Shown here one piece after another: positions 25,971 through 45,024 of a DNA stretch of 64,000 nucleotides. The notes beneath the pieces were generated by a model that worked only from the letters and a program-made list of their open reading frames with translations, had not been told where the DNA came from and searched no databases. A program made the position numbers and the translations under genes. Origin of the DNA: Arthrobacter sp. JZ12 (GTDB lineage Bacteria; Actinomycetota; Actinomycetes; Actinomycetales; Micrococcaceae); contig NZ_CP045246.1 in assembly GCF_035189165.1 (NCBI RefSeq), positions 186,001-250,000 of the forward strand. Direction: 5' to 3'. Position 1 is the first letter of the stretch, and each line of letters opens with the position of its first letter.

Positions 25971-26022
25971 AAGTCGCATCGGTTCTCCCGATCCTCCCGT
26001 TCCTCCTCCCGAAGGCCCTGTC

Positions 26023-27156: not shown

Positions 27157-27210
27157 GCCTGCACCGGCGTCGAACCCGTGCACGGTTCCGGACGTGCCAG
27201 CATTAACGGC

Positions 27211-29976: not shown

Positions 29977-30645
29977 TTAGAGCAGGTGGGGGATGTTGGT
30001 CCCCAGACCCAGGATGAAGATTGCGTAGAAGGCAGCGACGATCAGCACTGAATACAGCGTCGCGGCGCGCCACGTCTCACCACCGAGGAACTTCATCCAG
30101 ATGAAGCACAGCAGCAGGGCGGGGACCTCGAAGCCTATTACCGGCATCAGCCACACCAGACCCAGCAGGCTTAGGAAGCCGAACAGGGCCATCCGCGACA
30201 GGGGAGAGAACTTCTCCCCGTCCAGGCCCCCGCGCCGGCCGACAACCAGCTGCGCGAGGGCAAGGACGGTGATGATGAGGCAGATGATGAACGGCCAGGT
30301 CCCGGAGCCCGGCTGTGCCGGGCTCCCGAGGCCGAGTCCAACAGCTAGAACCATGCCTCCAACGCCCACGGCAACGGCAACCAACGACGCGGCGAGGTTG
30401 GCGATCGGGCCGGACGGCGGCGGTGATTCCGCTGCCCATTCGGCAGCGAGTTCCTCGGGAGTGAGGATCGGCGCCGGGCCTTCGAAGTCGGTGTACTGGC
30501 GGTTGTCTTCAGTACCCCCGATCCGGTGGGATCCACCGGTTCGGTCCGCGGTGTTTGCGTCTACCGCTTCGGTTACTTCGGTGACCTCGTCGGTCATCCT
30601 GTTTTCCGCGTCGTTGGTGCGCTTGGGCTCCATGGCAATGCTCAT
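29977..30645 (-). CDS. tctB: Tripartite tricarboxylate transporter, small permease TctB
   Basis: A 222-residue protein with an unusually long polar N-terminal part (~75 residues, Thr/Glu-rich) followed by four to five membrane segments (ANLAASLVAVAVGVGGMVLAVGLGL to the C terminus), matching TctB. It lies 25 bp before tctA and 36 bp after tctC on the same strand. An internal Met (residue 5) could be the start. Confidence 0.88.
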   Translation of the reverse strand: MSIAMEPKRTNDAENRMTDEVTEVTEAVDANTADRTGGSHRIGGTEDNRQYTDFEGPAPILTPEELAAEWAAESPPPSGPIANLAASLVAVAVGVGGMVLAVGLGLGSPAQPGSGTWPFIICLIITVLALAQLVVGRRGGLDGEKFSPLSRMALFGFLSLLGLVWLMPVIGFEVPALLLCFIWMKFLGGETWRAATLYSVLIVAAFYAIFILGLGTNIPHLL

Positions 30646-30681: not shown

Positions 30682-31683
30682 CTACTCGGTGAGCGAGATG
30701 TCGTATTCCTCGATCAGAGCCTTGTACTGCTCTGCCAGGGCGTTCCATTCCTCGACTACTTCTTCGCCGGAGACTTCCCACGGAGCGAGGATGTTGGACT
30801 CGTTGAACTCCTTGTAGGCGTCGGTGGCCTGGGTGGCTTCGACGGACTCGACGAGGCGTGCCTTCACGTCTTCAGGCAGGCCCTTGGGAGCTGCGAGTGC
30901 ACGGTACTGGGAAACAGGAACGTCGAAGCCCTCTTCGACTGCGGTGGGTACGTCCTGGAGGAACTCGCTGCGCTCTTCTGCGAAGGTGACGATCGGCGTT
31001 ACGGTGCCTGCCTCGATCTGCGGAAGGGCTTCACCGAGCTGGATCGTGGCTACGTCCACCTGGTCGCCCATGACGGCGGTCAGGGCGGGGGAGCCGGAGT
31101 CGAAGGGAACGGCGGTGCCTTCAATCTCGGCCTGGGCGAACAGGACTGCCTGCGCCAGCTGGGAACCGGTGCCGACACCGGTGGTGCCGAAGTTGAGGTC
31201 GCCGCTTGCAGCCTTGACATCCTCGAGGTTCTCGATGCCGGATTCCTTGCTGGCAACCAGGACGTAATCGTCCTGCGACAGGCCGGCGATGACGTCGAGA
31301 TCGTCAAGGCTGACCGCCTCGCCCTCAGGAACGGTGAGGGAGGTGATGGTGATCAGGGTGGCGTTGAGGAGAACGAGGTTTTCCCCGTTGGGCTCCATTG
31401 CCGCTACTTCCTTGGTGGCGAGTGCTCCGTTGGCGCCGGCCTTGTTGACCACGGGTACTGCGACGCCGAGGTCTTCAGCCATGCCTTCGGCTACCTGGCG
31501 GGCGATGCGGTCGGTCGAACCGCCGGCATCCTGTCCTACGGTGATGGTGACGGGGCCGCTGGGGAATTCAGCTTCGGCGGCGTCGCCGCCCCCACCGACG
31601 TTTCCTCCACAGGCGGACAGCGCCAGTACGCCGGCAGCTGCGGTGGTCGCCAGCATGGTGCGGCGGGTGAATGATTCTTTCAC
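30682..31683 (-). CDS. tctC: Tripartite tricarboxylate transporter, binding lipoprotein TctC
   Basis: A 333-residue extracytoplasmic solute receptor. The N terminus TRRTMLATTAAAGVLALSACGG has a twin-Arg-like start and lipobox LSAC (Cys ~27). The mature part shows the TctC/Bug fold (ITVGQDAGGSTDRIARQVAEGM, NKAGANGALATKEVA, NFGTTGVGTGSQLA). GTG 31683 has GAGGAG 10 nt upstream; earlier in-frame codons lack a site. First gene of the tct operon, with a LysR-type site and promoter at 31769-31823. Confidence 0.92.
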   Translation of the reverse strand: MKESFTRRTMLATTAAAGVLALSACGGNVGGGGDAAEAEFPSGPVTITVGQDAGGSTDRIARQVAEGMAEDLGVAVPVVNKAGANGALATKEVAAMEPNGENLVLLNATLITITSLTVPEGEAVSLDDLDVIAGLSQDDYVLVASKESGIENLEDVKAASGDLNFGTTGVGTGSQLAQAVLFAQAEIEGTAVPFDSGSPALTAVMGDQVDVATIQLGEALPQIEAGTVTPIVTFAEERSEFLQDVPTAVEEGFDVPVSQYRALAAPKGLPEDVKARLVESVEATQATDAYKEFNESNILAPWEVSGEEVVEEWNALAEQYKALIEEYDISLTE

Positions 31684-31768
31684 GACTTGGTTACTCCTCG
31701 GTAAGGAACGGCGTTGTTCTACTTCTCGGACCGCTTGATGTGATGGCACTCACGATGGCCCGATGAAA

Positions 31769-31799
31769 ACTCTACGAAGAGGTAATGATGCGTGTCCAA
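31769..31799 (-). promoter_or_regulatory. Predicted tctC promoter
   Basis: On the minus strand: TTGGAC (31799-31794), 19-nt spacer, TAGAGT (31774-31769). The -35 starts exactly 10 nt after the LysR-type site at 31810-31823. Confidence 0.55.
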
Positions 31800-31809
31800 G
31801 CCCACATAT

Positions 31810-31823
31810 GCATGGAGTGATGC
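31810..31823 (-). promoter_or_regulatory. LysR-type operator, tctC
   Basis: On the minus strand GCATCACTCCATGC, a GCAT-N6-ATGC inverted repeat matching the sites before the 41986 and 43957-region genes (GYATCRMTCCATRC). It lies 10 nt upstream of the -35. Confidence 0.6.
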
Positions 31824-31860
31824 ACTCGCAGTATCACGATGCGGTCTCTGGCGGAAGAGC

Positions 31861-32793
31861 CTAAAAGGAGTGGGAAGGCCCTGCGTCGGCTAGGCCGGAC
31901 CCTTCCTCGAGAATGATGTCCAGCAGCCGTATGACTGCCGGGTTGGTTGTTGATTCGCTCCATGCAACGTCCAGGTCGGCGCGATTGAGGTCGGCGAGCC
32001 CCGGTTGGCCCACCAGTTCCTCGAAGCACACTCCCGGAGGAGCGAAATCCCTGGACGATGCCGGAACCAGGGTGACCCCGAGCCCGGCGGCTACGAACGC
32101 CAGCAGGGCGGGCGCCTGACTGGCGAACTGGGTGATCCTCGGATGGACGCCGGCACTTTCGTAGAGCCGCATGACCAGGTCGTAGAAGTAGCGGGCCTCG
32201 GCCGTCGAGTACATCATGAGCGGCAGCCCATCCAACTGCCGGAGGGATACGCCGTTCCCGCTTGCCAGTTCGTGTCCCTCGGGTAGTGCCGCAACGAGGC
32301 GGTCCTCCATGAAGGGGCGGGTGATAACGCCCGGCCGTGCAACGATCGGGCGCAGGAGGCCGATGTCGATCGAACCGCGGGACAGGGCGTCCAATTGATC
32401 CACGGATACGGCTTCACGCAGGACCAGCGAGACGCCCGGCATCTGGGCACCTGCCTTACGGAGGATCGCGGGCAGCGCAACCTGCCCGGCGATTGCTGTG
32501 TATCCGATGACTATGGACCCTGCCTCGCCGGTTGCCACGCGCCGCACGTCGAGGGAGGTCTTGCTGCAAAGGTCCAGTACCCTGCGCGCGGCCGGCAGCA
32601 GCACCTTGCCCGCCGCCGTCAGTTCAACCTTCCGGCTGTTGCGTTCAAAGAGCTGTGCGTCCAGTTCCCGCTCAAGTAGTTGGATCTGCCGGCTGAGCGG
32701 GGGCTGTGTCATATTGAGGCGCGCTGCTGCGGCTCCGAAATGCAGTTCCTCGGCGACGGCGACGAAGGACTCCAGCTGAATGAGGGAGAACAT
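31861..32793 (-). CDS. LysR family transcriptional regulator 1
   Basis: A 310-residue LysR regulator: N-terminal helix-turn-helix (LESFVAVAEELHFGAAAARLNMTQPPLSRQIQLLERELDAQLFER, residues 6-50) and a periplasmic-binding-like effector domain. ATG 32793 has AAGGAG 9 nt upstream. It lies between tctC (same strand) and a divergent glucarate-dehydratase-like gene, with a LysR-type site 13 nt before its own start. Close in sequence to LysR 2 at 43056. Probable inducer is a sugar acid or pathway intermediate. Confidence 0.9.
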   Translation of the reverse strand: MFSLIQLESFVAVAEELHFGAAAARLNMTQPPLSRQIQLLERELDAQLFERNSRKVELTAAGKVLLPAARRVLDLCSKTSLDVRRVATGEAGSIVIGYTAIAGQVALPAILRKAGAQMPGVSLVLREAVSVDQLDALSRGSIDIGLLRPIVARPGVITRPFMEDRLVAALPEGHELASGNGVSLRQLDGLPLMMYSTAEARYFYDLVMRLYESAGVHPRITQFASQAPALLAFVAAGLGVTLVPASSRDFAPPGVCFEELVGQPGLADLNRADLDVAWSESTTNPAVIRLLDIILEEGSGLADAGPSHSF

Positions 32794-32806
32794 GAATCCA
32801 CTCCTT

Positions 32807-32820
32807 GCATGATTTCGTGC
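32807..32820 (+). promoter_or_regulatory. LysR-type operator, LysR 1 / glucarate-dehydratase-like gene
   Basis: GCATGATTTCGTGC (GCAT-N6-GTGC). It is 10 nt upstream of TTGGAC at 32831 on the plus strand and 13 nt upstream of the LysR 1 start on the minus strand, so it may activate one gene and repress the other. Confidence 0.55.
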
Positions 32821-32830
32821 TGATTTTAGC

Positions 32831-32861
32831 TTGGACAGCATGAATTAGCGGCGTTTAGCGT
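32831..32861 (+). promoter_or_regulatory. Predicted promoter of the glucarate-dehydratase-like gene
   Basis: TTGGAC (32831-32836), 19-nt spacer, TAGCGT (32856-32861). Same geometry to the upstream LysR-type site as at tctC, 41986 and kdgD. Confidence 0.5.
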
Positions 32862-32894
32862 GAACGGGATCACACTTTACGAGAGAGGAAGCCG

Positions 32895-34211
32895 ATGCTG
32901 ACTTCTGCAGGAGCCCGCACTGAGGAAAGCTCCCCGCACTATGGCCAGGCCGCCATCACCGGGGTCACCATTACCCCGGTAGCGTTCGTAGACCCGCCCC
33001 TGCTCAATACGGTCGGGGTCCACGAGCCGTTCGCATTGCGGGCAATCCTGCAGATCCATACCGATGCCGGAGTGACCGGACTTGGCGAGACCTACGGCGA
33101 TACGGGCCATCTGGCGCGCCTGCAGCTTGCCGCCCACGCCCTCGCCGGCGCCGACCCCTTCAATGTCAACGACCTCCGAGCCAGGATCACCCGGGCGCTT
33201 GCTGCGGACACCAGCAAGGGCGGCCATGGCATGAGCGGCATGGTTACGGGATCCTCCACGGCGGACCGCGTGCTGTCACCGTTTGACGTCGCCGCCTTCG
33301 ATATCCAGGGAAAGCTGCTTGGGGTGCCTGTCAGCACTTTGCTCGGGGGCGCGGTCCGGGATGCGGTTCCCTTCAGCGGTTACCTCTTCTACAAGTGGGC
33401 GGGGCACCCCGGACAGGACGACGACAGCTGGGGGGCGGCGCTCGATCCCGAAGGAATCGTGGCGCAGGCTCAGCGCATGGTCTCGGGCTACGGCTTTTCT
33501 GCGCTCAAGCTCAAGGGCGGCGTGTTTGCACCGGACCAGGAGGCCGCGGCTATTGAGGCGCTGCGTGCAGAGTTCCCCGAACTTGCCCTGCGGATCGATC
33601 CCAACGCCGCCTGGACCGTGGATACCTCAATCTCGATCGGGCGCCGCCTGGAGGGAGTGCTTGAGTACCTCGAGGACCCCACGCCCGGCATCGAAGGCAT
33701 GGCCGAAGTCCGCCGGAACGTGCCGATGCCGCTGGCTACGAACATGTGCGTGGTGAGCTTCGCCGACGTGCCGCCGGCCGTGTCGGCAGGTTCGGTGGAC
33801 GTCGTTCTCTCGGACCACCATTTCTGGGGAGGGCTACGCCGGTCCCAGACGCTGGCCGGCATCGCAGAGACCTTTGCACTGGGGCTGTCCATGCACTCCA
33901 ACTCCCACCTGGGCATCAGCCTGGCCGCCATGGTGCACCTGGCAGCGGCCACGCCCAACCTCGACTACGCCTGTGACACCCACTGGCCCTGGAAGCGGGA
34001 AGACGAGGACGTTGTCCTTCCGGGAGCCCTGACCTTCAAGGACGGTAGCGTTGCGGTTCCCACATCGCCGGGTCTCGGCGTTGAACTCGACCCGGAGGCG
34101 CTCGAGCGCCTGCACCGCCAGTACGTTGCCAGCGGCATCACGGAACGCGATGACACCGGCTACATGCAGCGTGTGCAGCCGAACTATGAGCTCAAGAGCC
34201 CGCGGTGGTGA
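32895..34211 (+). CDS. Glucarate-dehydratase-related enolase-superfamily enzyme
   Basis: A 438-residue protein of the glucarate dehydratase subgroup. The catalytic residues align: LKLKG (Lys205, Lys207), DPNAAW (Asp235, Asn237), Glu260, the subgroup-typical Asn ligand in ATNM (Asn283), Asp307 and MHSNSH (His334, Asn336), and CDTHW (Asp361-His363). It also keeps VGVHEP (His43) and GYLFY. So dehydration of a sugar diacid or acid is expected, but it differs from the canonical copy at 46707. Its stop overlaps the start of a 2-hydroxyacid dehydrogenase, implying a joint step. Confidence 0.86.
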   Translation: MLTSAGARTEESSPHYGQAAITGVTITPVAFVDPPLLNTVGVHEPFALRAILQIHTDAGVTGLGETYGDTGHLARLQLAAHALAGADPFNVNDLRARITRALAADTSKGGHGMSGMVTGSSTADRVLSPFDVAAFDIQGKLLGVPVSTLLGGAVRDAVPFSGYLFYKWAGHPGQDDDSWGAALDPEGIVAQAQRMVSGYGFSALKLKGGVFAPDQEAAAIEALRAEFPELALRIDPNAAWTVDTSISIGRRLEGVLEYLEDPTPGIEGMAEVRRNVPMPLATNMCVVSFADVPPAVSAGSVDVVLSDHHFWGGLRRSQTLAGIAETFALGLSMHSNSHLGISLAAMVHLAAATPNLDYACDTHWPWKREDEDVVLPGALTFKDGSVAVPTSPGLGVELDPEALERLHRQYVASGITERDDTGYMQRVQPNYELKSPRW

Positions 34212-35230
34212 GCGCCCCCAGCTCCGCAGCAGAACCTGCGCCCGCGGAGACAAGCACGCTGAAAGTAGCGGTTACTGACCCGATCATCACCCGCTTCGCC
34301 GACCACCTGACGGCGGGCGCCCCCGATCACGAGTGGATCTTTACGGATGGCACGGCGAAGGCCGAGCGGACAGCCATCCTGGCAGGCGCCGACGTCGTTG
34401 TCTGTTCCCGCATGGAAGCCGAAGAGGCCGCAGCTTGTACCGCTCGCCTGGTGCAGGTGACGGGAGCAGGTTTGGACCGGGTTGCCGTGGCCTCGCTTCC
34501 GGAGACCGTGGCCGTAGCCAACACCTTCCACCATGAACGCTCCATCGCCGAGCATGTGCTGATGTCCATCTTGATGCTCAGCAGGAGGCTGCCCGTAGCC
34601 GATGAGGAGCTGCGCGCCGGAGTGTGGCGTACGATCGCCACCGACCCCGACGTCCCGCTGCACCGCACCCTGGACACGATGACGCTTGGGGTTGTGGGCT
34701 ACGGCGGTATCGGCAGTGAGACAGCCCGCCTCGCCGCCGCGCTCGGGATGGACATAGTGGCCGTCCGTAGCCGCCCGGAGGCGCCCCTGCCCGACGACGG
34801 CGCCCGCCCCCGCTGGGTGGGCGGCATCGGTGAGCTGCCCCGCCTGCTGGCGGAGTCCGACGTCGTCGTTGTCACTGTTCCGCTGACCGCAGCGACCGAG
34901 GGAATGATCGGAGTGCCGGAATTCGCGGCCATGCGGCCGGACGCCCTGCTGGTCAATGTTGCCCGTGGGCCTGTGGTTGACCAGGCCGCTCTGTATGGGG
35001 CGCTGCTGGAACGTCGGATCGGAGGTGCAGCCATAGACGTCTGGTGGGGTGCACCGGCCGCGGGACGGACACCGCCCGCCGATTTCGCGTTCGGTGAGCT
35101 GCCCAACGTGGTGCTGACACCACACTATTCGGGCCATGCCCGGTCGACCTTCGAACAGCGGGCCCGGGACATCGCAGAGAACGTGAACCGACTGGCCGCC
35201 GGTGGGCAACTGATCAACCGGGTGAGGTGA
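34208..35230 (+). CDS. 2-hydroxyacid dehydrogenase-family protein lacking the catalytic Glu
   Basis: A 340-residue D-isomer-specific 2-hydroxyacid dehydrogenase-like protein. NAD-binding GVVGYGGIGSETARLAAALG (~161-180), the catalytic Arg in VNVARGPVVD (Arg253) and the His in LTPHYSGH (His306) are present. The usual Glu of the EPL motif is replaced: the segment reads DVWWGAPAAG, with Ala282 in that place. Formate-dehydrogenase-like relatives also lack this Glu. GTG 34208 overlaps the previous stop by 4 nt (GTGA); GTG 34205 is the alternative. Convergent with the TauE gene. Confidence 0.85.
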   Translation: MSAPSSAAEPAPAETSTLKVAVTDPIITRFADHLTAGAPDHEWIFTDGTAKAERTAILAGADVVVCSRMEAEEAAACTARLVQVTGAGLDRVAVASLPETVAVANTFHHERSIAEHVLMSILMLSRRLPVADEELRAGVWRTIATDPDVPLHRTLDTMTLGVVGYGGIGSETARLAAALGMDIVAVRSRPEAPLPDDGARPRWVGGIGELPRLLAESDVVVVTVPLTAATEGMIGVPEFAAMRPDALLVNVARGPVVDQAALYGALLERRIGGAAIDVWWGAPAAGRTPPADFAFGELPNVVLTPHYSGHARSTFEQRARDIAENVNRLAAGGQLINRVR

Positions 35231-35246
35231 GGATGCAGCGGGGTTG

Positions 35247-35969
35247 CTAGCCGCCGGCGAGCAGCCGGATGATCAGCAGCCCCGCTCCACCTCCTGCAGC
35301 AAGCAGGGCAACCAACCGCAGCCGCCCGGCGTCGAGGAACCTGTTGAGCCAGCGCGAGATGCCGAAACCGAGAAGTACCACGGGAGCCAACCAGAGGAAC
35401 GCGCTGAGGATCTCCGCGGTGACGGTGCCGGCAAGGGCCAGCAGGCCGACCGAGACAAGCGAACCGACGAGGAAGAAAGCACTCATCGTGCCGCGAAGCC
35501 GTGCCGGCGGTTGGCCTTGCCAGACGATCGCCATCGGGGCGCCTCCGATTGAGGTTGCCGTTCCCATAATGCCCGACAGCCCGCCCGCAGCAATCAGTGC
35601 GGGTCGGGTAGGAGCGGGGCGCCATCCGAGGAACGCGGAACCGACTCCGACCAGCACGCTGACCGCGACCAGCCAGGAGAGCGCGGCGGAAGACATAGCC
35701 ACCGCCAGCCAGGCACCGACCACGCTGCCCGGAATCCTGCCCGCCAGCGCCCATGCAGCGCCGCGAAGGTCCAGGTGTGCGCGCTCGCGGAAGGTCACAA
35801 GCATGGTCACCAGGCACGCAAGCATCACTACCAGTGCGGGTAACAGTTCAGGCGCGATGAGGGCGATCACGGGTGCGGCAACCAGTCCGGCCCCGAAGCC
35901 GATGGAACCCTGAAGGGCGGTGGCGGCACAGACCGCCACCGCCAGGATGGTTAGTTCTCCCGGGCTCAC
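35247..35969 (-). CDS. TauE/SafE family anion permease
   Basis: A 240-residue membrane protein with about 7-8 hydrophobic segments and the TauE/SafE patterns GSIGFGAGLVAAPVIALI (residues ~18-35) and GLSGIMGTATSIGGAPMAIVWQ. Members move sulfite, sulfoacetate or other small organic anions. GTG 35969 overlaps the stop of the ABC ATPase gene by 4 nt, making it the last gene of the peptide-type ABC operon. The open frame continues upstream but inside the ATPase gene. Confidence 0.86.
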   Translation of the reverse strand: MSPGELTILAVAVCAATALQGSIGFGAGLVAAPVIALIAPELLPALVVMLACLVTMLVTFRERAHLDLRGAAWALAGRIPGSVVGAWLAVAMSSAALSWLVAVSVLVGVGSAFLGWRPAPTRPALIAAGGLSGIMGTATSIGGAPMAIVWQGQPPARLRGTMSAFFLVGSLVSVGLLALAGTVTAEILSAFLWLAPVVLLGFGISRWLNRFLDAGRLRLVALLAAGGGAGLLIIRLLAGG

Positions 35970-37066
35970 GAACCGGCAGGGACAGGCGCGAGCCCGGCCT
36001 CTGCGGCATCCGCGAGTGGGAAGTGGCATTCGGCTGCGTGAATCGAAGGAACCTGTCCGGTCCGGATGGAAGGAACGCCCAGGTGCACCCTTCCCGCCTG
36101 CTCGGCGGTCTGCGCGGGCGGTGCAACACGTGCGCAGATGTCCTGCGCCTTCCAGCATCGGGTCCGGAACCTGCACCCCGACGGCGGATCCAGGGGAGAG
36201 GGCAGCTCGCCGCGCAGCACAATCCGCTCGGTCGGGCGATCTGCAGCGTTCAGCTTGGGCGAGGCCGACATGAGCGCTGCGGTGTAGGGGTGCAGCGGGC
36301 GCTCGAACACGTCCTCGGTGATGCCGGTTTCGATGATCCGGCCAAGGTACATCACAGCCACGCGGTCAGTGACGTGGCGGACCACGGACAGATCGTGCGA
36401 GATGAAGATGTAGCTCACTCCCAGTTTCTGCTGCAGCTCGTTCAGCAGGTTCAGCACCTGGGCCTGTACGGACAGGTCCAGTGCGGACACGGGCTCGTCC
36501 AGGATGATCAGCTCGGGATTGAGCGCAAGCGCCCGCGCGATACCGATGCGCTGGCGCTGGCCGCCGGAGAATTCCTGCGGCGACTTCTTGGCATCGGATG
36601 CCCTCAGGCCCACCAGTTCCAGCAACTCGTGGAGGCGGGCCTGGCGTTCGGAAGACGAGCGGAACAGGTCGCGGTGCGTGGCCCACGGCTCGGAGATGAT
36701 TTCACCGGCGGTCATGCGGGCGTTCAGTGACGCAAACGGGTCCTGGAACACCATCTGTACCCTGCGCCGCCAGGCAAGCAGCTCCTTGCCCCGCAGACTG
36801 AAGGGGTCGGCGCCGTCGAAGGTGACCGTGCCGGCGTCGGGCTTTTCCAGCAGCATCAGGGTGCGGGCAAGAGTGGACTTTCCACAGCCGGACTCGCCCA
36901 CCAGGCCGAGGGTCTCCCCGCGGCCCACGGACAGGTTGATGCCGTCCAGCGCACGCAGCTCGTTGCTGCCGGAGCCGCTGCGGGCAACGTGGAAGATCTT
37001 GGTGACGTCGCGGACCTCGAGGGCGGCAGTTTCGGCCTTCTGGTCACGCTCTAGCTGAGCGGTCAT
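35966..37066 (-). CDS. Dpp/Opp-type ABC transporter ATP-binding protein (second)
   Basis: A 366-residue ATPase with Walker [10 protein letters not shown], the Q-loop region MVFQDPFASLN, signature FSGGQRQRIGIARAL, Walker B ELIILDEPVSALD and the C-terminal oligopeptide-transporter domain with the PSPLDPPSGCRFRTRCWKA motif. OppF/DppF type. ATG 37066 overlaps the stop of the preceding gene (ATGA). Confidence 0.92.
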   Translation of the reverse strand: MTAQLERDQKAETAALEVRDVTKIFHVARSGSGSNELRALDGINLSVGRGETLGLVGESGCGKSTLARTLMLLEKPDAGTVTFDGADPFSLRGKELLAWRRRVQMVFQDPFASLNARMTAGEIISEPWATHRDLFRSSSERQARLHELLELVGLRASDAKKSPQEFSGGQRQRIGIARALALNPELIILDEPVSALDLSVQAQVLNLLNELQQKLGVSYIFISHDLSVVRHVTDRVAVMYLGRIIETGITEDVFERPLHPYTAALMSASPKLNAADRPTERIVLRGELPSPLDPPSGCRFRTRCWKAQDICARVAPPAQTAEQAGRVHLGVPSIRTGQVPSIHAAECHFPLADAAEAGLAPVPAGS

Positions 37067-38112
37067 GCTCGGACTTCCTTCAGTGACGTCTCGGGATTGA
37101 GAAGTTCGGAAAAATGGCAGGCGGCGGAGCGCCCAGGAGCGGTTTCCCGCAGGGCCGGGCGTTTTGCGCGGCACAGTTCCTGCACCAGCGGGCAGCGGTC
37201 CTGGTAGACGCAGCCGGGCGGGATGTTCTTCAGCTCCGGTGGGCTGCCGGGAATCGACGAGAGCGTTGAGCCGCGCTCGGCGTCCGTCGGCACCGACTCA
37301 AGCAGTCCCTTGGTGTACGGGTGCTTGGGGTCGGCAAAGACCTCGTCAACCGGGCCCGATTCGACGACGTTCCCGGCATACATCACGCACACGGTGTCGG
37401 CCTCTTCGGCGACGACGGCGAGGTCGTGCGTGATGAGCACAACCGCCATGTCCTCTTCTTCGCGTAGGCGGCGCAGCAGATCCATGATCTGTGCCTGCAC
37501 GGTAACGTCCAGCGCGGTGGTCGGCTCATCGGCGATGAGCAGCCGCGGGCTGAGGGCCACCGCTATTGCGATGAGGATGCGCTGGCGCATGCCTCCGGAG
37601 AACTGGTGCGGATAGGAATCCACGCGCGACTCAGGCTGGGGGATACCCACGCGAGCCATCAGCTTGATGGCCTCCTGCCGGGCTTCGGAGGCGGAAAGGC
37701 CGCGGTGGATCCGGAACGCTTCGCCGATCTGCACGCCTACGGGGTAGACGGGGTTCAGCGCGGTCAGCGCGTCCTGGAACACGATTCCCAGCTCAGAGCC
37801 GGCGATCTTCCGCCGCTGTTTAGCGTTCATGGGGGCGAGGTCCTTGCCCTCGAGCTCCATGGAGCCGCCAGCGACGTGGGCTACCGGGTCCAGGACTCCG
37901 GCGATCGCCTTGGCCGTCATGGACTTGCCGCAGCCGGATTCACCCAGAAGGGCGAGTGTTTCGCCTGCGCGGGCCTCGAAGCCTGCCGAGCTGACCGCCC
38001 GTACCGTTCCGAACGGAGTGCGGATGTCCACGTTGAGTCCGTCGACCTTGAGGACCACGGGATGGGTGCCCTCGGAGTGGCGGGTGGGTGCAGTTGTTTC
38101 CGTCATGGTCAC
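37063..38112 (-). CDS. Dpp/Opp-type ABC transporter ATP-binding protein (first)
   Basis: A 349-residue ATPase of OppD/DppD type: Walker [25 protein letters not shown], signature [15 protein letters not shown]-like, Walker [14 protein letters not shown]-loop [13 protein letters not shown], and the Cys-rich oligopeptide C-terminal region [20 protein letters not shown] 38112 overlaps the permease stop by 4 nt and has AAGGAG 5 nt upstream; ATG 38106 is the alternative. Confidence 0.92.
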
Positions 38113-39089
38113 TTTGACTCCTTGGCAGCAAGGCGGGTCACAAATTTTTTGCGGCCCGGGAGGGCGAGGCGCCAGCGCTGTCCGGGATCGGTCGCGATGC
38201 GCAGCCAGGCGGCGAGCATGTTCGCTGCGATCGCCGTGATCACGATGGCGAGGCCCGGGAAGATGGACAGCCACCAGGCGGTCTGCAGGTACTGCCGTCC
38301 CTGGGCCACCATGAGGCCCCAGGAGACATCCGGCGGCTGGATACCGATCCCGAGGAAGGACAGCGAGGACTCGGCGAGCATCACATAGCAGAACTCGAGG
38401 GTGGCCAGCGTGAGCAGGGTGGGCGTAACCACCGGGACCACGTGGCGACGGATGATCGCGTTGGGCTTGGCGCCGAAGGTGCGGGCCGCGTCCACGAAGG
38501 TGCGGCTTTGCAGCTCGGCTGACTCGGCCCGTGCCGTCCTGAGGTAGATCGGGATACGGGTCAGGGCGAGAATGAGCACGATGTTCGCGATCGAGGGGTT
38601 GAAGACATACAGCACGACGACGGCGAGCAGCAGGGAGGGGAAGCTCATGATCACGTCGGCGATGCGCATCGAGACGTTCTCGCGCCAGCCGCGGTGGTAG
38701 CCGGCCCAGATTCCCCACAGGGAACCGATCAGAAGGGCAATCGCCACAGCGGGGATGGCAACCAGGAGCGTGGTTTGGGTGGCGACAACGAGCCGCGCCA
38801 GAACCGACCGGCCCAGTGAATCCGAACCGAGGAGATACTCCCAGCCGTTGGCTGGGTCGAACGGGGCCTTGTTTGCGAACAGCAGGTTCTGGCGCGTTGC
38901 CAGTTCCCCCATCAGCATCGGCCCGAAAACAGCGGTTGCCAGCACAATGAGCAGGATGATCGCTCCCGCTGAGGCGAACTTGTCGCGGAGCAGCATGCGC
39001 AGCATGCTCGGGTGGTTGTTCTTGGCGGCGGTGCCCTTGCTCCTGGAACTTCCGTGGGCCCCGGCTGCGGTGCTAGAGGTTCGAGTCAT
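38109..39089 (-). CDS. Dpp/Opp-type ABC transporter permease (DppC-like)
   Basis: A 326-residue permease with a polar N-terminal extension, a first membrane helix (KFASAGAIILLIVLATAVFGPML) and a binding-protein-dependent transport domain with the EAA-like loop (ESAELQSRTFVDAARTFGAKPNAIIRRHVVPV). It ends with LGIGIQPPDVSWGLMVAQGR typical of DppC. Works with the neighbouring permease and two ATPases. Confidence 0.9.
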   Translation of the reverse strand: MTRTSSTAAGAHGSSRSKGTAAKNNHPSMLRMLLRDKFASAGAIILLIVLATAVFGPMLMGELATRQNLLFANKAPFDPANGWEYLLGSDSLGRSVLARLVVATQTTLLVAIPAVAIALLIGSLWGIWAGYHRGWRENVSMRIADVIMSFPSLLLAVVVLYVFNPSIANIVLILALTRIPIYLRTARAESAELQSRTFVDAARTFGAKPNAIIRRHVVPVVTPTLLTLATLEFCYVMLAESSLSFLGIGIQPPDVSWGLMVAQGRQYLQTAWWLSIFPGLAIVITAIAANMLAAWLRIATDPGQRWRLALPGRKKFVTRLAAKESK

Positions 39090-39098
39090 CGTCTTCTC

Positions 39099-40097
39099 CT
39101 ATGCCTGGGCTGTCGCGGTAGGCGTGGGGTCGGCGGGAGCAGCCGGCCGGGCGGGTGCCTTCTTCCGTCGGGCTGAGGCGCTTGCCGGCCGAACCCGCGG
39201 GTCAAGCAATGCGTAGGCAAGGTCGATCAGGATGTTCAGCACGAAGATGGCGATTGCGGTCAGCAGTACGGCGGCCTGGAGAACCGCGAAGTCGCGCTGC
39301 AGGATGGAGTCGATCATCAGCTTTCCGATTCCCGGCCAACCGAAGATGGTCTCGACGACGACCGCGCCGTTGACGAGCCCCACCATGAGGTCACCGGCAA
39401 CGGTGAGGGCCGGAGCTGCCGCGTTGCGTAGCGCGTGCCGGGTGACAACCCGCTTCTGCGACGCGCCCTTGCTGCGGGCGAGCTTGATGTAGGGCTCGGA
39501 CAGTGCGGACACCATTGCCCCGCGCACCACCTGGACCAGCGCCCCGAAGGGCCGCATCACCAGGGTGGCTATGGGCAGTATCCATGCCTCGGCTCCGACG
39601 ACGCCGGAGGTCGGCAGCCAGCCGAGGGAGATCGCGAAGATCCAGATGCCGACGATGGCGAGCCAGAAGTCCGGGATGGAGGCCGCTGCCATCGACACGA
39701 AGCTGGCGATCCGGTCCGCGATCCCGTTGGGCTTCAGGGCCGCCCAGCTTCCCACAATGACCGCCAGGACGATGGCCAAAATCATTGTGGTGAGAGCCAG
39801 CTGAAGGGTGGCCGGGAAAGCCCGCAGCGCCATTGCCGCCGCGGACTCTCCCGTCCGGAGAGAGGTGCCGAAATCCAGCTGCAGCACGCCGCCGAAGTAG
39901 TCGGCCATCTGCACCAGCAGAGGCTGGTCCAGGCCGTTTCGCGTTGCGAAGTCCTCGCGCATCTGCTCGGTGGCGTTCAACGGCAGATACAGGCTGGCCG
40001 GGTTACCGGTCATCCTTGCCAGCGCGAAGACTCCGATCACAACTACAACCAGCGGCAATGCGCTGGAAACGATACGTTTCCGCAGATAGGTCAGCAT
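39099..40097 (-). CDS. Dpp/Opp-type ABC transporter permease (DppB-like)
   Basis: A 332-residue permease with six helices and the DppB pattern: N-terminal YLRKRIVSSALPLVVVVIGVFALARMTGNPA, GLDQPLLVQMADYFGGVLQLDFG, and the cytoplasmic loop SEPYIKLARSKGASQKRVVTRHALRNAAAP. The C terminus is a basic Ala/Pro-rich tail. Nine bp before the DppC-like gene. Confidence 0.9.
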   Translation of the reverse strand: MLTYLRKRIVSSALPLVVVVIGVFALARMTGNPASLYLPLNATEQMREDFATRNGLDQPLLVQMADYFGGVLQLDFGTSLRTGESAAAMALRAFPATLQLALTTMILAIVLAVIVGSWAALKPNGIADRIASFVSMAAASIPDFWLAIVGIWIFAISLGWLPTSGVVGAEAWILPIATLVMRPFGALVQVVRGAMVSALSEPYIKLARSKGASQKRVVTRHALRNAAAPALTVAGDLMVGLVNGAVVVETIFGWPGIGKLMIDSILQRDFAVLQAAVLLTAIAIFVLNILIDLAYALLDPRVRPASASARRKKAPARPAAPADPTPTATAQA

Positions 40098-40133
40098 GGC
40101 TTCCCCCTCCTATTCCACTCCGTTGGTTGACCG

Positions 40134-41729
40134 CTACTGCGCGGGCTTGATCTCGGCCAGGCGCAGCTCGTCACCGGTGGACGAGTTCGGCTCGTAGTCG
40201 ATGGTCTCGGCCTTTCCGATCATGCCGGTCTGGTGCATGATGTGGGCGAACTGGACAACCTCTTCGTTCTGGTAGGCGAAAATTTCCTCGAACGCGCTCT
40301 GGCGTTCGTCTCCGGTTGCCGCATTGGCTTCCTGGATCATGGCGTCCAGCTCAGGCGTGCCGAAGGCGCTCTGAGCGCCGTCGGTGAGCATGTACTGGTC
40401 CACCGTGAACGCCGCGTCACCGGCCTGGTTGCCGTGCTGCGTCATGTGCAGGATGGCGCCTTCGTCTTCAACGAAGGGGCGTACCTGGTACTGCAGGTGC
40501 TGGCTGGTCTCGAGCATCTTGAGCTCGACGTTCAGGCCGGCCTGCTTCAGCTGCTCCTGGAGCACCTGGCCCAGTTCCTGAATCTTTGGGAACTGTGCAT
40601 TGCGCACGATCAGGCTGATGGGGGCGCTGGTGTCGACGCCGTCGGCCTGCGCTTCGGCAACCAGGGACTTGGCCTGCTCGAGGTCGAACGGCCAACCTTC
40701 GAGTCCTGCATTGTGGCCGACGATGCCTTCGGGTACCAGCTGCGCGGCAACCTTCTCGCGTCCGCCGTACAGGCTCGCCACGATGCCTTCCTTGTCAATC
40801 GCGTAGTTCACGGCCTGACGGACGCGGATGTCATTGAACGGAGGCTTGTCCGTGTGCATGCGCAGCGCGACGGTCTCGTTGTTGGGGTAGGGGACGCCAA
40901 GGTCGCCGATGTTGTCTTCAGGGCTGAGGCCCATCGCGATGTCGGCCTCGCCCGAGGTGACCATTGCAGCGCGCACGGTGCCCTCTGCACGCCACTGATA
41001 CTCGGCCTTCGGGAAGGCGGGCGCCTCACCCCAGTAGCCGTCGTAGGCGGACACGGTGATCTTTTGGCCGGCCTGCCACTCATCGAGCTTGTACGGCCCC
41101 GTGCCGATCGGTTCCCGGACCTTCTCGGTGTCGGAGGTCTCGCTGGGGACAACCTCGAGGAACGACAACCGCAGAGGCAGGATGGGGTCCGGCCCGACAG
41201 CGGTCACGCTGAGTGTAGTGTCATCGACGACCTCGACGGTGAGGTCGTCGTCGCCAAAGACGTAGCCTTCCACGTTGCAGCCAAGCTGGGAGTTGACCGC
41301 GCGCTCAATGGTGTGCGCGGCGTCTTCAGCCGTGAAGTCGCTGCCATCATGGAAGGTTACGCCTTCGCGCAGCTTGAAGGTCCAGGTGGTGTCGTCCTCG
41401 GAGCTCCACTCGGTGGCGAGCTTGGGCTCCAGTTCACCGGTTGAAGGATTGCGCTCGACGAGGGGCTCGGTGATGGTGGAGCGGTCGATCACGCCGGTGC
41501 TGGTCAGGTTGGACTCGCAGGGCTCCAGCGTCGGCGGCTCCTGCTGAAGGACCACCCGCAGGGTGTCCGAAGCCTCGGCGGTGCTGCCTTCGGCATTCTC
41601 CGAGTTGGCCACCGCACAGCCGCTCAGCAGCATGGTGCTGCCGACCGCCGCGGATGTCAGGGCTAGGGCCAGACGGCGCTTGGCCGAGCCCGTCTTTTCC
41701 GATGACCCGGAAGTGGGTTCAAACGTCAT
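40134..41729 (-). CDS. Dpp/Opp-type ABC transporter substrate-binding lipoprotein
   Basis: A 531-residue family-5 solute-binding protein. The signal ends in the lipobox LLSGC (about residue 38). Family features: LATEWSSEDDTTWTFKLREGVTFHDGSDFTAEDA and GTGPYKLDEWQAGQKITVSAYDGYWG, then VRQAVNYAIDKEGIV. ATG 41729 has GGAGGAAAC just upstream. First gene of the six-gene operon (binding protein, two permeases, two ATPases, TauE). Such systems import peptides, sugars or glycosides; the context suggests a sugar-acid-related solute. Confidence 0.9.
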   Translation of the reverse strand: MTFEPTSGSSEKTGSAKRRLALALTSAAVGSTMLLSGCAVANSENAEGSTAEASDTLRVVLQQEPPTLEPCESNLTSTGVIDRSTITEPLVERNPSTGELEPKLATEWSSEDDTTWTFKLREGVTFHDGSDFTAEDAAHTIERAVNSQLGCNVEGYVFGDDDLTVEVVDDTTLSVTAVGPDPILPLRLSFLEVVPSETSDTEKVREPIGTGPYKLDEWQAGQKITVSAYDGYWGEAPAFPKAEYQWRAEGTVRAAMVTSGEADIAMGLSPEDNIGDLGVPYPNNETVALRMHTDKPPFNDIRVRQAVNYAIDKEGIVASLYGGREKVAAQLVPEGIVGHNAGLEGWPFDLEQAKSLVAEAQADGVDTSAPISLIVRNAQFPKIQELGQVLQEQLKQAGLNVELKMLETSQHLQYQVRPFVEDEGAILHMTQHGNQAGDAAFTVDQYMLTDGAQSAFGTPELDAMIQEANAATGDERQSAFEEIFAYQNEEVVQFAHIMHQTGMIGKAETIDYEPNSSTGDELRLAEIKPAQ

Positions 41730-41799
41730 TGTTTCCTCCGAAGGAGCCAGTGATGAAAGCCGGTGAAACTGGGATAAATGCCGGCTGTGACCCAACTTT

Positions 41800-41813
41800 G
41801 TGATTGTCATCAC
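41800..41813. promoter_or_regulatory. Inverted repeat upstream of the ABC operon
   Basis: GTGAT-TGTC-ATCAC, 71 nt upstream of the binding-protein start. A candidate operator of GntR type; differs from the LysR-type sites. Confidence 0.4.
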
Positions 41814-41859
41814 GGCGAGTCAAGAGGCGAAACAAGTGTGAAGAAGCCCGGAATCAAGC

Positions 41860-41906
41860 GGAACGATGCGGTTCCCGAAGAAGTTCCGCGCCGTTTCGCG
41901 GAACTT
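41860..41906. promoter_or_regulatory. Cluster of GGAAC/GTTCC half-sites with a perfect 10-bp inverted repeat
   Basis: GGAAC-N6-GTTCC at 41860-41875 is followed by AAGTTCCGCG (41881-41890), 6 nt, CGCGGAACTT (41897-41906), a perfect inverted repeat. It sits between the divergent ABC operon and the hydroxyacid dehydrogenase gene. It looks like a tandem operator for a dimeric regulator not encoded next to it. Confidence 0.55.
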
Positions 41907-41925
41907 TGTGATCCATGCCTCAGAG

Positions 41926-41939
41926 GTATCGATCCATGC
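41926..41939 (+). promoter_or_regulatory. LysR-type operator, hydroxyacid dehydrogenase gene
   Basis: GTATCGATCCATGC, 10 nt upstream of a -35. A partial second copy ATCCATGC lies 21 bp upstream (41911-41918), two helical turns. Confidence 0.65.
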
Positions 41940-41949
41940 TAATTCCGTG

Positions 41950-41979
41950 TTGGACCGAAATGGTGGGCTTTTCTACTGT
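41950..41979 (+). promoter_or_regulatory. Predicted promoter of the 41986 gene
   Basis: TTGGAC (41950-41955), 18-nt spacer, TACTGT (41974-41979). Transcription would start at or within a base or two of the ATG at 41986, so the message is probably leaderless. Confidence 0.55.
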
Positions 41980-41985
41980 CGCTCC

Positions 41986-42972
41986 ATGAGTATCGACACA
42001 GCTGAGCACTCCGAAAACCGTTCAAAGGCGAACGGCCAGCAGATCCTGCAGGTCGGTCCCGTCAATCCTGCCGTCGCTGCAGCGCTCGCCGATGAATTCG
42101 GCGCGCTGCGCCTGCCCGAAGGTGCGGAACGCGAGGACTTCCTCGAGCAGCACGCCGACGGGGTACGCATCGCGGTCTGCTCCGGTCGGGTAGGCGTGGA
42201 TACCGAACTGATGCGACAACTGCCGAACCTCGAAGTCATAGTCAACTTCGGTGTCGGTTACGACGCAACCGACGTCGCCCAGGCGAACGAGCGCGGCATC
42301 GCTATTAGCAACACTCCCGACGTCCTCACCGACTGCGTGGCGGACACCGCCCTGGCCCTCTACCTGGACGTTCTTCGCGGAACCAGTGCGGCAGACCGTT
42401 TTGTACGGCGCGGGGAGTGGGCGCGGATCCCATCCTTCCCGTTGACCGTCCGTGCGTCGGGCCGAAAGGTCGGCATCCTCGGGTTGGGGCGGATCGGCAA
42501 GGCGATCGCTGCACGCCTTGAGGGGTTCGGCTGCGAGATCCACTATCACAACCGCCGCCCGGTCGAGGGCTCGCCCTACACGTACCAGTCGTCGCCGGCG
42601 GAACTCGCTTCCGCCGTCGAGGTACTTGTTATTGCAGCGGCAGGCGGCCCGGAATCGGCGGGGCTGGTCAACGCTGATGTTCTCGAGAAGCTCGGCCCTG
42701 ACGGATACCTGGTTAACATCGCCCGCGGCAGCGTGGTGGACGAGCCTGAACTCATCGCGGCCCTTCAGGAGGGACGCCTGGCAGGGGCGGGCCTGGACGT
42801 GTTCGCGAACGAGCCACACGTGCCCGCCGAGCTGATGGCACTGGACAACGTGGTGCTGCTTCCGCACGTAGGAAGCGGAACCCGCGAGACCCGAGCGGAC
42901 ATGGCCGCACTCACGCTGCATAATCTGCGCAGCTACCTCCGCGATTCCACTCTCGTTACGCCTATCAGCTAG
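41986..42972 (+). CDS. D-2-hydroxyacid dehydrogenase
   Basis: A 328-residue NAD(P)-dependent D-isomer-specific 2-hydroxyacid dehydrogenase. Rossmann motif GLGRIG (165-170) with the catalytic Arg247 (NIARGSVVDE), Glu276 (NEP) and His294 (LPHVGSGT), so a complete active site, unlike the copy at 34208. It likely interconverts a glyoxylate- or hydroxypyruvate-like keto acid with its D-hydroxy acid. ATG 41986 is chosen over an upstream ATG (41866) because the predicted promoter lies between them. Confidence 0.9.
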   Translation: MSIDTAEHSENRSKANGQQILQVGPVNPAVAAALADEFGALRLPEGAEREDFLEQHADGVRIAVCSGRVGVDTELMRQLPNLEVIVNFGVGYDATDVAQANERGIAISNTPDVLTDCVADTALALYLDVLRGTSAADRFVRRGEWARIPSFPLTVRASGRKVGILGLGRIGKAIAARLEGFGCEIHYHNRRPVEGSPYTYQSSPAELASAVEVLVIAAAGGPESAGLVNADVLEKLGPDGYLVNIARGSVVDEPELIAALQEGRLAGAGLDVFANEPHVPAELMALDNVVLLPHVGSGTRETRADMAALTLHNLRSYLRDSTLVTPIS

Positions 42973-42982
42973 CACTTTTGGC

Positions 42983-43001
42983 GGCCCCTCAAGGAAGGGG
43001 C
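42983..43001. terminator. Short hairpin after the hydroxyacid dehydrogenase
   Basis: GCCCCT-CAAGGA-AGGGGC within 42983-43001, just downstream of the stop. The stem is only 6 bp and has no T-run, so it is a weak candidate. Confidence 0.3.
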
Positions 43002-43029
43002 GATATGATGCGTCTCAAGACCGCAAAAA

Positions 43030-43043
43030 GCACCGATTGATAC
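43030..43043 (-). promoter_or_regulatory. LysR-type operator, LysR 2 autoregulatory site
   Basis: GCACCGATTGATAC, the reverse complement of GTATCAATCGGTGC. It ends 12 nt before the LysR 2 ATG, matching the position of the LysR 1 site, and could block transcription of the regulator's own gene. Confidence 0.6.
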
Positions 43044-43055
43044 TTGGGGCGCATC

Positions 43056-43940
43056 ATGTTCACGCTCGATCAGGCCAAAAGTTTCATAGCGGTCGCCGAG
43101 GAACTGCACTTCGGTCGCGCCGCAGAGCGGCTCAATATGACGCAGCCACCGCTGAGCAGGCAGATCCAGAAGCTGGAGCGGAGTGTCGGCGTCGAACTTC
43201 TCGAGCGCGACAACCGGAAGGTGTCGCTGACGCCGGCCGGCCGGGCGTTCCTGGCCGAGGCGCGGAAGCTGATTGTCGCTGCGGAGCGCGCGCCCAAGAC
43301 CGCGCAGCGTATCGCTGCGGGCAAGTCCGGCCAGCTGCGGGTCGGGTTTACGGCCGCGTCCGGGTTCAGCCTCCTGGGCCCGCTGCTGGCGGAGATCGCG
43401 GCTGAACTGCCCGACGTCGACGTGGAGCTTCAGGAGCTCGTGACCGGCGATCAGCTGGCGGCTATTTCCGACGGCGATCTTGATCTCGGGCTCGCGCGCC
43501 CGGCTTTCGATGAGGACCTGTTCGAGTCCCATCTGCTGTTCACCGAGGATCTCCTGCTTGCCGTCCCAATAGGGCATGTGCTGGATGGCCTCAACCGTGC
43601 GCCGGTAGTCGCCGACCTGAAGAACATTCCGTTGATCATGCATTCGCCGATCCAGGCGAGGTACTTCTATGACCTGGTGGTTCGGACGGTTCCTATCGAA
43701 CACGCAAACGTCGTTCACACCGTGAGCCAGATTCTGACTATGGTGGCCCTCGTCGCCGCCGGCAGGGGAGTGGCGTTCGTGCCTGAGTCCGCGAAGCTGC
43801 TGGGCATGGCAGGCGTGTCCTACCTCCGGTTGGCCGACGTGGAATCGGATGTCGTCGAGTTGTACGCAATCTGGAGCCGCGAGATGCGGAACCCGGCACT
43901 CGGCAGGCTGCTGGGGGTCATCCGCTCGGGGTGGGCATAG
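43056..43940 (+). CDS. LysR family transcriptional regulator 2
   Basis: A 294-residue LysR regulator with the N-terminal helix-turn-helix (QAKSFIAVAEELHFGRAAERLNMTQPPLSRQIQKLERSVGVELLER, residues 5-50) closely matching LysR 1, and an effector domain. It lies between the hydroxyacid dehydrogenase and kdgD, both in the same direction and both preceded by the shared 14-bp site. ATG 43056 places the domain at the N terminus; a TTG at 43044 is in frame. Confidence 0.9.
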   Translation: MFTLDQAKSFIAVAEELHFGRAAERLNMTQPPLSRQIQKLERSVGVELLERDNRKVSLTPAGRAFLAEARKLIVAAERAPKTAQRIAAGKSGQLRVGFTAASGFSLLGPLLAEIAAELPDVDVELQELVTGDQLAAISDGDLDLGLARPAFDEDLFESHLLFTEDLLLAVPIGHVLDGLNRAPVVADLKNIPLIMHSPIQARYFYDLVVRTVPIEHANVVHTVSQILTMVALVAAGRGVAFVPESAKLLGMAGVSYLRLADVESDVVELYAIWSREMRNPALGRLLGVIRSGWA

Positions 43941-43956
43941 GGGCTATGCCGGACGA

Positions 43957-43970
43957 GTATCAATCCATAC
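43957..43970 (+). promoter_or_regulatory. LysR-type operator, kdgD operon
   Basis: GTATCAATCCATAC, a GTAT-N6-ATAC inverted repeat, 10 nt upstream of the -35 at 43981. Confidence 0.65.
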
Positions 43971-43980
43971 AAAAGAGGGC

Positions 43981-44010
43981 TTAGACAGGCATCGATAAGC
44001 TTCCTACTCT
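43981..44010 (+). promoter_or_regulatory. Predicted promoter of the kdgD operon
   Basis: TTAGAC (43981-43986), 18-nt spacer, TACTCT (44005-44010). Same format as the 41986 promoter, leaving a leader of about 60 nt. Confidence 0.55.
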
Positions 44011-44076: not shown

Positions 44077-45024
44077 GTGGCTCAGTATGCACCCCAAGAA
44101 CTCGCCCAGAAGCTCAAGGACGGACTCCTGTCCTTCCCGGTAACCGCATTCGACTCGAACCTGAAGGTGGACGAGGAAGCTTACCGCAAGCACCTGGCCT
44201 GGCAGGCAAGCTTCGACGTCGCCGGTCTTTTCGCAGCCGGCGGCACGGGTGAAGGGTTCAGCCTTACCCCTGCTGAAGCTGCAGGCGTAATCCGCACCGC
44301 CGTCAACGAAGTCGGTAACAAGGTGCCCGTGCTCGCCTCCGCCGGCGGCTCCATGGCACAGGCCGTCCAGAACGCGCAGGACGCCGAGGAAGCAGGCGCC
44401 GAAGGGCTCCTCCTGCTTCCCCCGTACCTGACCGAATGCGACCAGGACGGTCTGTTCGCCCACGTCAGCGCCGTTTGCTCCGCCACCTCCATCGGCGTCA
44501 TCGTCTACAACCGCGGCAACGCGATCTACTCGGCCGAGACTGTCGCCCGCCTTGCAGAGCGCCACCCGAACTTCATTGGTTTCAAGGACGCGATCGGTGA
44601 CATCGAGCACCTCACCAAGGTCTACGCAAAGAACGGCGACCGCCTGTTCTACCTGGGTGGCCTGCCCACCGCCGAGACCTTCGCTCTCCCGCTGCTGCAG
44701 CTGGGAATGAGCACCTACTCCTCGGCGTTGTACAACTTCGTTCCTGAGTTCGCCCTCGAGTTCTACAAGGACGTTCGCAAGCAGGACCACGCAGCAGTAA
44801 CCGAGAAGCTCCAGCGCTTCGTGCTGCCCTACCTCGAAATCCGCGACCGCGTGAAGGGCTACGGCGTCTCGATCGTCAAGGGTGGCCTCAAGGTTGTTGG
44901 TCGCGACGTCGGAAGCGTCCGTCCGCCGCTGCAGGACCTCACCGAGGCTGATCTCGCCGACCTGAGCGCGCTCATCGACGCGGCGGGTGTCCGCCCGGCG
45001 CCTGCTGCACTCACCAACGCCTGA
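44077..45024 (+). CDS. kdgD: 5-dehydro-4-deoxyglucarate dehydratase
   Basis: A 315-residue DapA-superfamily enzyme that dehydrates and decarboxylates 5-dehydro-4-deoxyglucarate to 2-oxoglutarate semialdehyde. The barrel shows GGTGEGFSL (55-63), VIVYNRGN (Tyr144) and the Schiff-base lysine in GFKDAIGD (Lys170). The RGN after Tyr is typical of KdgD rather than DapA. GTG 44077 has AAGGAAG 7 nt upstream. First gene of the operon with the semialdehyde dehydrogenase and gudD. Confidence 0.93.
   Translation: MAQYAPQELAQKLKDGLLSFPVTAFDSNLKVDEEAYRKHLAWQASFDVAGLFAAGGTGEGFSLTPAEAAGVIRTAVNEVGNKVPVLASAGGSMAQAVQNAQDAEEAGAEGLLLLPPYLTECDQDGLFAHVSAVCSATSIGVIVYNRGNAIYSAETVARLAERHPNFIGFKDAIGDIEHLTKVYAKNGDRLFYLGGLPTAETFALPLLQLGMSTYSSALYNFVPEFALEFYKDVRKQDHAAVTEKLQRFVLPYLEIRDRVKGYGVSIVKGGLKVVGRDVGSVRPPLQDLTEADLADLSALIDAAGVRPAPAALTNA

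Follow-up and report, generated by a model that had tools for sequence, protein, structure and literature searches.

A putative LysR operator shared by promoters of a probable aldarate regulon in Arthrobacter sp. JZ12 and other actinobacteria

In Arthrobacter sp. JZ12, five sites within a stretch of 64,000 nucleotides (the window, that is, the whole of the DNA analysed here) can be assigned with good confidence to the LysR operator of an aldarate regulon, which would serve to take up sugar diacids and degrade them oxidatively. It is very probable that this operator is bound by a LysR-type regulator that coordinates both processes in relatives of Arthrobacter and in other actinobacteria, and, to judge from the sequence comparisons below, the operator is ancient. 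The genes of the proposed regulon and the two LysR genes lie as follows.

28434-29951, following tctB: TctA (Pfam PF01970)
29977-30645, following tctC: putative TctB, named from gene order
30682..31689 (start approximate), minus strand: TctC, solute-binding protein of a tripartite tricarboxylate transporter (Pfam PF03401)
31861..32793, minus strand: LysR1, of the second LysR lineage, with HTH_1 and LysR_substrate above the Pfam gathering scores
32895..34211, plus strand: glucarate-dehydratase-like protein of the enolase superfamily (TIGR03247, 264.4 bits, cut-off 828.7)
41986..42972, plus strand: HADH2, D-2-hydroxyacid dehydrogenase family (best NCBIfam match glyoxylate reductase, 212 bits, cut-off of 455 not reached)
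43056..43940, plus strand: LysR2, with HTH_1 and LysR_substrate above the Pfam cut-offs
44077..45024, plus strand: KdgD, 5-dehydro-4-deoxyglucarate dehydratase (TIGR03249, 397.9 bits, cut-off 373.95)
45061-46710, after kdgD: aldehyde dehydrogenase (ALDH), with matches below cut-off only
46707-48035, after the ALDH gene: glucarate dehydratase (TIGR03247, 796.3 bits, just below the cut-off of 828.7)

The Tct transporter, glucarate dehydratase, KdgD and the aldehyde dehydrogenase make up the oxidative route from glucarate or galactarate to 2-oxoglutarate. A talarate/galactarate dehydratase gene (TalGalacDh, 687 bits), followed by the gene for a GntR-type regulator, occupies positions 25942-27915.

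The sequence-only reading of this DNA had proposed five 14-mers of the form GYAT-N6-RTRC as LysR sites, and all five are in place. At tctC, the 32895 gene, the 41986 gene and kdgD the 14-mer is followed, as claimed, by a gap of 10 nt and TTRGAC, and then by a -10 of the form TAnnnT at 19, 19, 18 and 18 nt respectively (TAGCGT at the 32895 gene). The degenerate 14-mer by itself is no more than chance level: the 64-kb window holds 12 matches where 8.1 would be expected, and as many as 12 turn up in 12 of 100 shuffles. The recurring spacing was said to have a low chance of arising, and the counts agree, as the 14-mer with the 10-nt gap and TTRGAC gives 5 matches in the 3.3-Mb genome, four of which are the named promoters and the fifth far off at C1:982795, and the reversed control gives none. 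In the genus, a search of 38 genomes gave 22 matches to this pattern in 14 genomes, 18 of the matches at tctC, kdgD, HADH2 or a 32895-type gene, one being the distant match just mentioned and three falling outside the examined set; the reversed pattern matched once (G007).

A 51-column matrix was trained on 96 sites of the family from other genera, none of them from the genus. In a scan of the window the five sites ranked first to fifth, and the sixth hit scored -10.0 bits; over 270,150 positions, on both strands of loci fetched for other reasons, the background maximum was 6.4 bits. Because the five sites take the top five places, more than 20 bits above the sixth, all of them belong to the set, those at the 32895 gene and LysR2 being weak. 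The candidate operators are given below with their putative promoter elements, as read from the sequence.

31785..31835, minus strand: tctC operator, 56.9 bits with the other-genera matrix and 0 mismatches to the full pattern in its own genome; box GATAC-N7-GCATC at 31835-31831/31823-31819, third half-site at 31814-31810, -35 TTGGAC at 31799-31794, spacer half-site GCATCAT at 31791-31785
31769..31774, minus strand: putative -10 of tctC, TAGAGT, 19 nt past the -35
32795..32845, plus strand: operator between LysR1 and the glucarate-dehydratase-like gene, 12.7 bits, the weakest of the five; the box begins 2 nt from the LysR1 start codon
41914..41964, plus strand: HADH2 operator, 39.9 bits; -35 at 41950-41955, -10 TACTGT at 41974-41979
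43005..43055, minus strand: box upstream of LysR2, 18.4 bits; H1 at 43055-43051, H2 at 43043-43039, abutting the LysR2 start codon at 43056
43945..43995, plus strand: kdgD operator, 57.7 bits, found at 58 of 60 orthologous promoters of other genera; -35 TTAGAC at 43981-43986, spacer half-site GCATCGA at 43989-43995, -10 TACTCT at 44005-44010

Counterparts of the weak operator at the 32895 gene scored 14.3 bits in genome G031, and 25.2 and 31.2 bits in G022 and G002, two genomes with LysR1 only.

When the first G of the 14-mer is numbered +1, the aligned sites of relatives carry GATRC at -11 to -7, GYATC at 1 to 5, SATRC at 10 to 14, TTRGAC at 25 to 30, and GCATC at 33 to 37 ahead of TAnnnT. 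The full putative operator would thus span about 50 bp and comprise a box, a third half-site SATRC, the -35 TTRGAC and, between -35 and -10, a further half-site GCATC. The spacing T-N11-A is the signature of LysR sites. Since GATRC-N7-GYATC is a T-N11-A box, the 14-mer, which had been taken for the LysR site itself, is better described as a composite of the right half of the box and the next half-site; the box sits one half-site further upstream, and the operator extends to the half-site in the -35/-10 spacer. SATRC repeats GATRC 21 bp on, or two helical turns, and many loci outside the genus have GATGC as third half-site, identical to the first. TAnnnT lies 18 or 19 nt past TTRGAC in 177 of 189 operator instances, in which some genomes are counted twice through overlapping loci, against 0.3% at random. 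With a spacing of 19 nt the centre of the box falls at -65, as reckoned from the putative -35 and -10, and -65 is the usual position of a LysR recognition site. The dyad expected of a LysR operator was therefore found both conserved, as GATRC-N7-GYATC, and near -65 by the putative promoter elements.

In a leave-one-block-out analysis at kdgD, H1 was recovered in 58/58 cases, H2 in 57/58, H3 in 56/57, TTRGAC in 56/56 and the spacer half-site in 57/60, with chance values of 0.4 to 5%; the sample also held tctC rows of at least 45% (33 of 35) and 13 HADH2 rows. Among located sites, GNAT stands at 33-36 in 57 of 60 at kdgD, in all 33 at tctC and in 10 of 12 at HADH2. Of the second site, the 5' half SATRC is strongly conserved, and the 3' half (positions 22-25) is a weak match, reading GGCT or GTGT in the sites of the window and AGCT at the 32895 gene.

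It may be asked whether GYAT-N6-RTRC is after all the dyad bound by a single LysR dimer just upstream of the -35. The palindrome is visible at tctC, 41926 and kdgD, where it matches on both strands, and both of its halves are conserved, but conservation extends one half-site upstream with T-N11-A spacing, and the 14-mer is centred near -54 and not -65. Moreover, of 31 loci where no tctC was seen divergent from LysR2, 18 retained GATRC-N7-GYATC, and just 2 of these also had the second half of the 14-mer. We regard this reading as improbable, and take the T-N11-A box as the recognition site.

Conservation was measured with a test matrix of 20 genus sites, window included, in 60 loci that were retrieved from other genera solely through their KdgD protein (60 of the 62 non-genus KdgD rows of at least 57%; G259, the second G183 copy and rows of 41-44% were left out). 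Scores of at least 20 bits were obtained at 58/60 kdgD, 34/35 tctC, 10/14 HADH2 and 5/10 32895-type promoters, and of at least 15 bits at 11/14 HADH2 and 6/10 32895-type promoters; a false HADH2 match in L156 was dropped from these counts, and for HADH2 in L153 and L156 and the 32895-type gene in L144 the starts were extrapolated beyond the stretch, so that their windows are meaningless. Conservation in orthologous promoters, on which the sequence-only reading had staked its claim, is thus nearly constant at kdgD and tctC, usual at the 41986 type and present in half of the 32895-type rows. The kdgD promoters of other genera without an operator at 20 bits were those of L175 (10.4 bits) and L171 (8.4 bits). 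With 30 shuffles per region, at least 15 bits was reached in 0 of 61 kdgD rows and in one tctC row, and among reversed kdgD regions in 1 of 61, this one (L197) being the site of a divergent gene; the 61st row is a 30% KdgD paralogue in L181, at -3.2 bits.

Further afield, the box with the third half-site and TTRGAC, one mismatch being allowed, was found in 44 of the 394 genomes of this class, a count that includes the JZ12 genome and those of the family, and the control pattern gave no match among the matches listed in this class-wide scan. Regulon genes were near or adjoining the site in 18 of 30 class-level loci; one had a LysR2 relative (44%) and a weak HADH2-like match, eight had a LysR relative only and three had none of the query genes. 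Of the 30, 11 carried the pattern without any tested enzyme or transporter gene of at least 45%, LysR relatives aside. Elsewhere in the class the operator precedes glucarate dehydratase (L209), HADH2 (L211, L215) or, in another family, talarate/galactarate dehydratase (L220, L225). In the f24 loci, which were selected because they match the pattern, 8 of 10 have operators on both sides of the LysR2 orthologue, one toward tctC and one toward kdgD; of the others, L237 has one operator, and that of L238 belongs to another LysR.

A different protein might bind the operator, for instance the GntR protein encoded at 27178-27915, with the LysR genes as bystanders. A GntR gene is nearby in many loci, and GguR of Halomonas, which deals with the same substrates, is of the GntR type according to PMC5507952. 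Against this, kdgD operators stand in loci with no GntR match on the fetched stretch (L168, L178-L180, L182-L186), and the box abuts a LysR start codon. The T-N11-A spacing, too, is that of LysR proteins. The talarate/galactarate dehydratase gene beside GntR, which serves as a natural negative, has no operator in the window (best score -31.3 bits), and its promoter reached 12 bits in none of 34 evaluable family loci, 8 genus loci and 7 f24-type loci. This dehydratase therefore apparently lies beside but outside the LysR regulon, probably under GntR control, and binding of the operator by GntR or another such protein is very unlikely. Equally little credence can be given to the view that the conserved block is merely a strong inherited promoter (-35, -10 and an upstream element) with no operator, for although TTRGAC and TAnnnT are among its best conserved parts, half-sites of a single motif stand in it in a set order and in both orientations, this arrangement recurs at the non-orthologous promoters of tctC, kdgD, HADH2 and the 32895 type, and bases within the spacer are conserved.

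With a LysR operator as the preferred reading, two regulators have to be considered. The recognition helices of LysR1 and LysR2, described earlier as near-identical, with the suggestion that the two may compete for the same sites, are identical over residues 25-38, and the proteins are 42% identical overall; such identity of the recognition helix is common in the LysR family. Of the 60 family loci, 59 have LysR2 on one stretch with kdgD, and LysR1 is the best match in none of these 60; L157 has a kdgD operator and no LysR2 on its 6.9-kb stretch. LysR2 is most likely the regulator of the operator set. In genomes G002 and G022 the best LysR matches are of LysR1 type (68 and 67%) and the next have E-values only near 1e-19, and thus no LysR2 was found there; kdgD, HADH2 and the LysR1/32895 region nevertheless carry operators scoring 20 to 31 bits in these genomes, the one at HADH2 having TTGTTA instead of TTRGAC. 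Since each LysR lineage alone accompanies the same operators, LysR1 and LysR2 are likely to overlap in operator specificity.

In a tree of 56 LysR proteins LysR1 pairs with the G022 protein (99/83), and the LysR1-like proteins are not recovered as one clade. A division of sites into a LysR1 class with GTGC as third half-site and a LysR2 class with ATRC was rejected, as 32895-type promoters have GTGC even where the stretch holds LysR2 but lacks LysR1 (L139, L142, L143). LysR proteins about 33-39% identical to LysR2 have the same operator geometry beside other genes in L238-L245 (for example L243:4121-4209, where by reading of its sequence the neighbour is a short-chain dehydrogenase), and the geometry therefore marks a LysR group and not this pathway alone.

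The sequence-only reading had linked five promoters, and a shared operator is indeed found at tctC, 32895, 41986 and kdgD, but the LysR2 site is no equal fifth. The 14-mer is present there, with GGTGC at the position of the third half-site and CTTGAG in the TTRGAC register, where no -35 had been claimed; neither is conserved. Among LysR2 rows (84, some genomes again counted twice), those with a divergent tctC kept the box by the strict pattern in 45 of 52, with the third half-site in 44, TTRGAC in 44 and GNAT in 45. Those without a recognised divergent tctC, as noted, kept it in 18 of 31, and of these 18 the third half-site was present in 2, TTRGAC in 0 and GNAT at 33-36 in 10. By the strict pattern the box was absent upstream of LysR2 in 7 of 52 and 13 of 31 loci respectively; the group without tctC includes the short loci L205, L206 and L237, whose neighbour possibly lies outside; in L206 a complete operator is present farther upstream. 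One further LysR2 locus has another divergent neighbour and all parts of the operator. The site in the window fits the group without tctC, and its counterpart in G031 lacks the third half-site. The best reading of the LysR2-upstream site is that of an autoregulatory box, and as the box touches the start codon at both LysR1 and LysR2, the regulator may also repress itself. A box is likewise present in the divergent region beside LysR1/32895-type genes in L088, L093 and L094 as in the window.

The motif GCATCAT upstream of LysR2 in loci without tctC was rejected as proof of a repressor site, because the LysR2 strand there reads ATGATGC, often TATGATGC, which may be the -10 of LysR2. At the tctC/LysR2 site, too, GCATCAT could be the LysR2 -10, TATGAT on the other strand; this reading is inapplicable at kdgD. 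Because a half-site is conserved in the -35/-10 spacer of kdgD, for which no reason other than binding is seen, we propose binding positions like those of BenM.

In the proposed mechanism LysR2 would control the set, and LysR1 would be a second regulator whose specificity overlaps with that of LysR2. One dimer would sit on the GATRC-N7-GYATC box about 65 bp upstream of the transcription start, and the second dimer of the tetramer would bind beside the promoter. By analogy with BenM and CatM, without inducer this second dimer would occupy the half-site in the -35/-10 spacer and block the promoter, and with inducer, presumably a sugar diacid or an intermediate of the pathway, it would move to the half-site immediately before the -35, where it would act as an activator. 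Both LysR1 and LysR2 would repress their own genes through the box at the start codon. We put the chances of such a BenM-like two-state switch at about even.

At benA a gap of 6 bp separates the first and second sites, and the operator described here has the same gap. According to PMC6628147, BenM and CatM of Acinetobacter baylyi act at benA and catB on a T-N11-A box, ATAC-N7-GTAT, with an imperfect second site that overlaps the -35 region and a third site used without effector; that box is contained in GATRC-N7-GYATC. The genes and the phylum differ, the pathway here being that of aldarates. The best full-length solved structures for the two regulators are 7w06, BenM, CatM and 1ixc (CbnR), and their scores to 7w06 and 1ixc are similar to those to BenM. 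Their best NCBIfam match is AlsR (NF045775), at 225.2 and 216.9 bits, far below the curated cut-off of 430, and no acetoin genes were identified among those examined. Another parallel is the GguR regulon of Halomonas, in which, according to PMC5507952, galactarate and glucarate genes and TctABC are likewise under one regulator; GguR is of the GntR family, whereas the regulators beside the operators here are LysR-type, with a LysR operator.

A kind of switch that is well known would thus serve a regulon of which we found no description: among the titles and abstract openings listed in a literature search there was no actinobacterial LysR aldarate regulon. A motif found by eye has become a testable regulon with a defined operator that extends from relatives of Arthrobacter to other actinobacterial families. 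Since LysR2 promoters without a divergent target drop the third half-site and the -35 yet often keep the box, the loci form a natural data set for the long-standing question of which half-sites LysR regulators require to activate and which to repress their own genes. The promoters are also candidates for glucarate- or galactarate-responsive sensors.

Gene order bears on the origin of the locus. In G003, G006, G008, G012, G013, G035 and G037, tctC and LysR2 are divergent neighbours with one common operator. In G002 and G022 the block adjoining kdgD consists of LysR1, the 32895 type, HADH1, a TauE-like gene, DppFDCB, a solute-binding protein (SBP) and HADH2, and the stretch has neither LysR2 nor tctC. 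In the window an 11-kb block from LysR1 to HADH2 (31861-42972), which includes a DppBCDF-type transporter, separates tctC from LysR2. The same block ends are seen in G031, on two contigs. From this order we infer that the LysR1 block came to sit between tctC and LysR2; after the separation tctC has a perfect operator and LysR2 the box only. The most inclusive account, to which we give slightly less than an even chance, is of a class-wide aldarate regulon with a BenM-like operator of three positions read by two LysR lineages, in which a block that came between the divergent tctC and LysR2 genes and divided their common promoter joined two ancestral clusters here. Each cluster would have brought its own LysR, and the two paralogues would now act on a single set of sites.

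The putative -10 of HADH2 (41974-41979) ends 6 nt before the start codon at 41986, which would place that codon at the expected transcription start, and the transcript may therefore be leaderless. Of the 11 genuine HADH2 rows in the family, 8 have a distance of 73 between operator and start.
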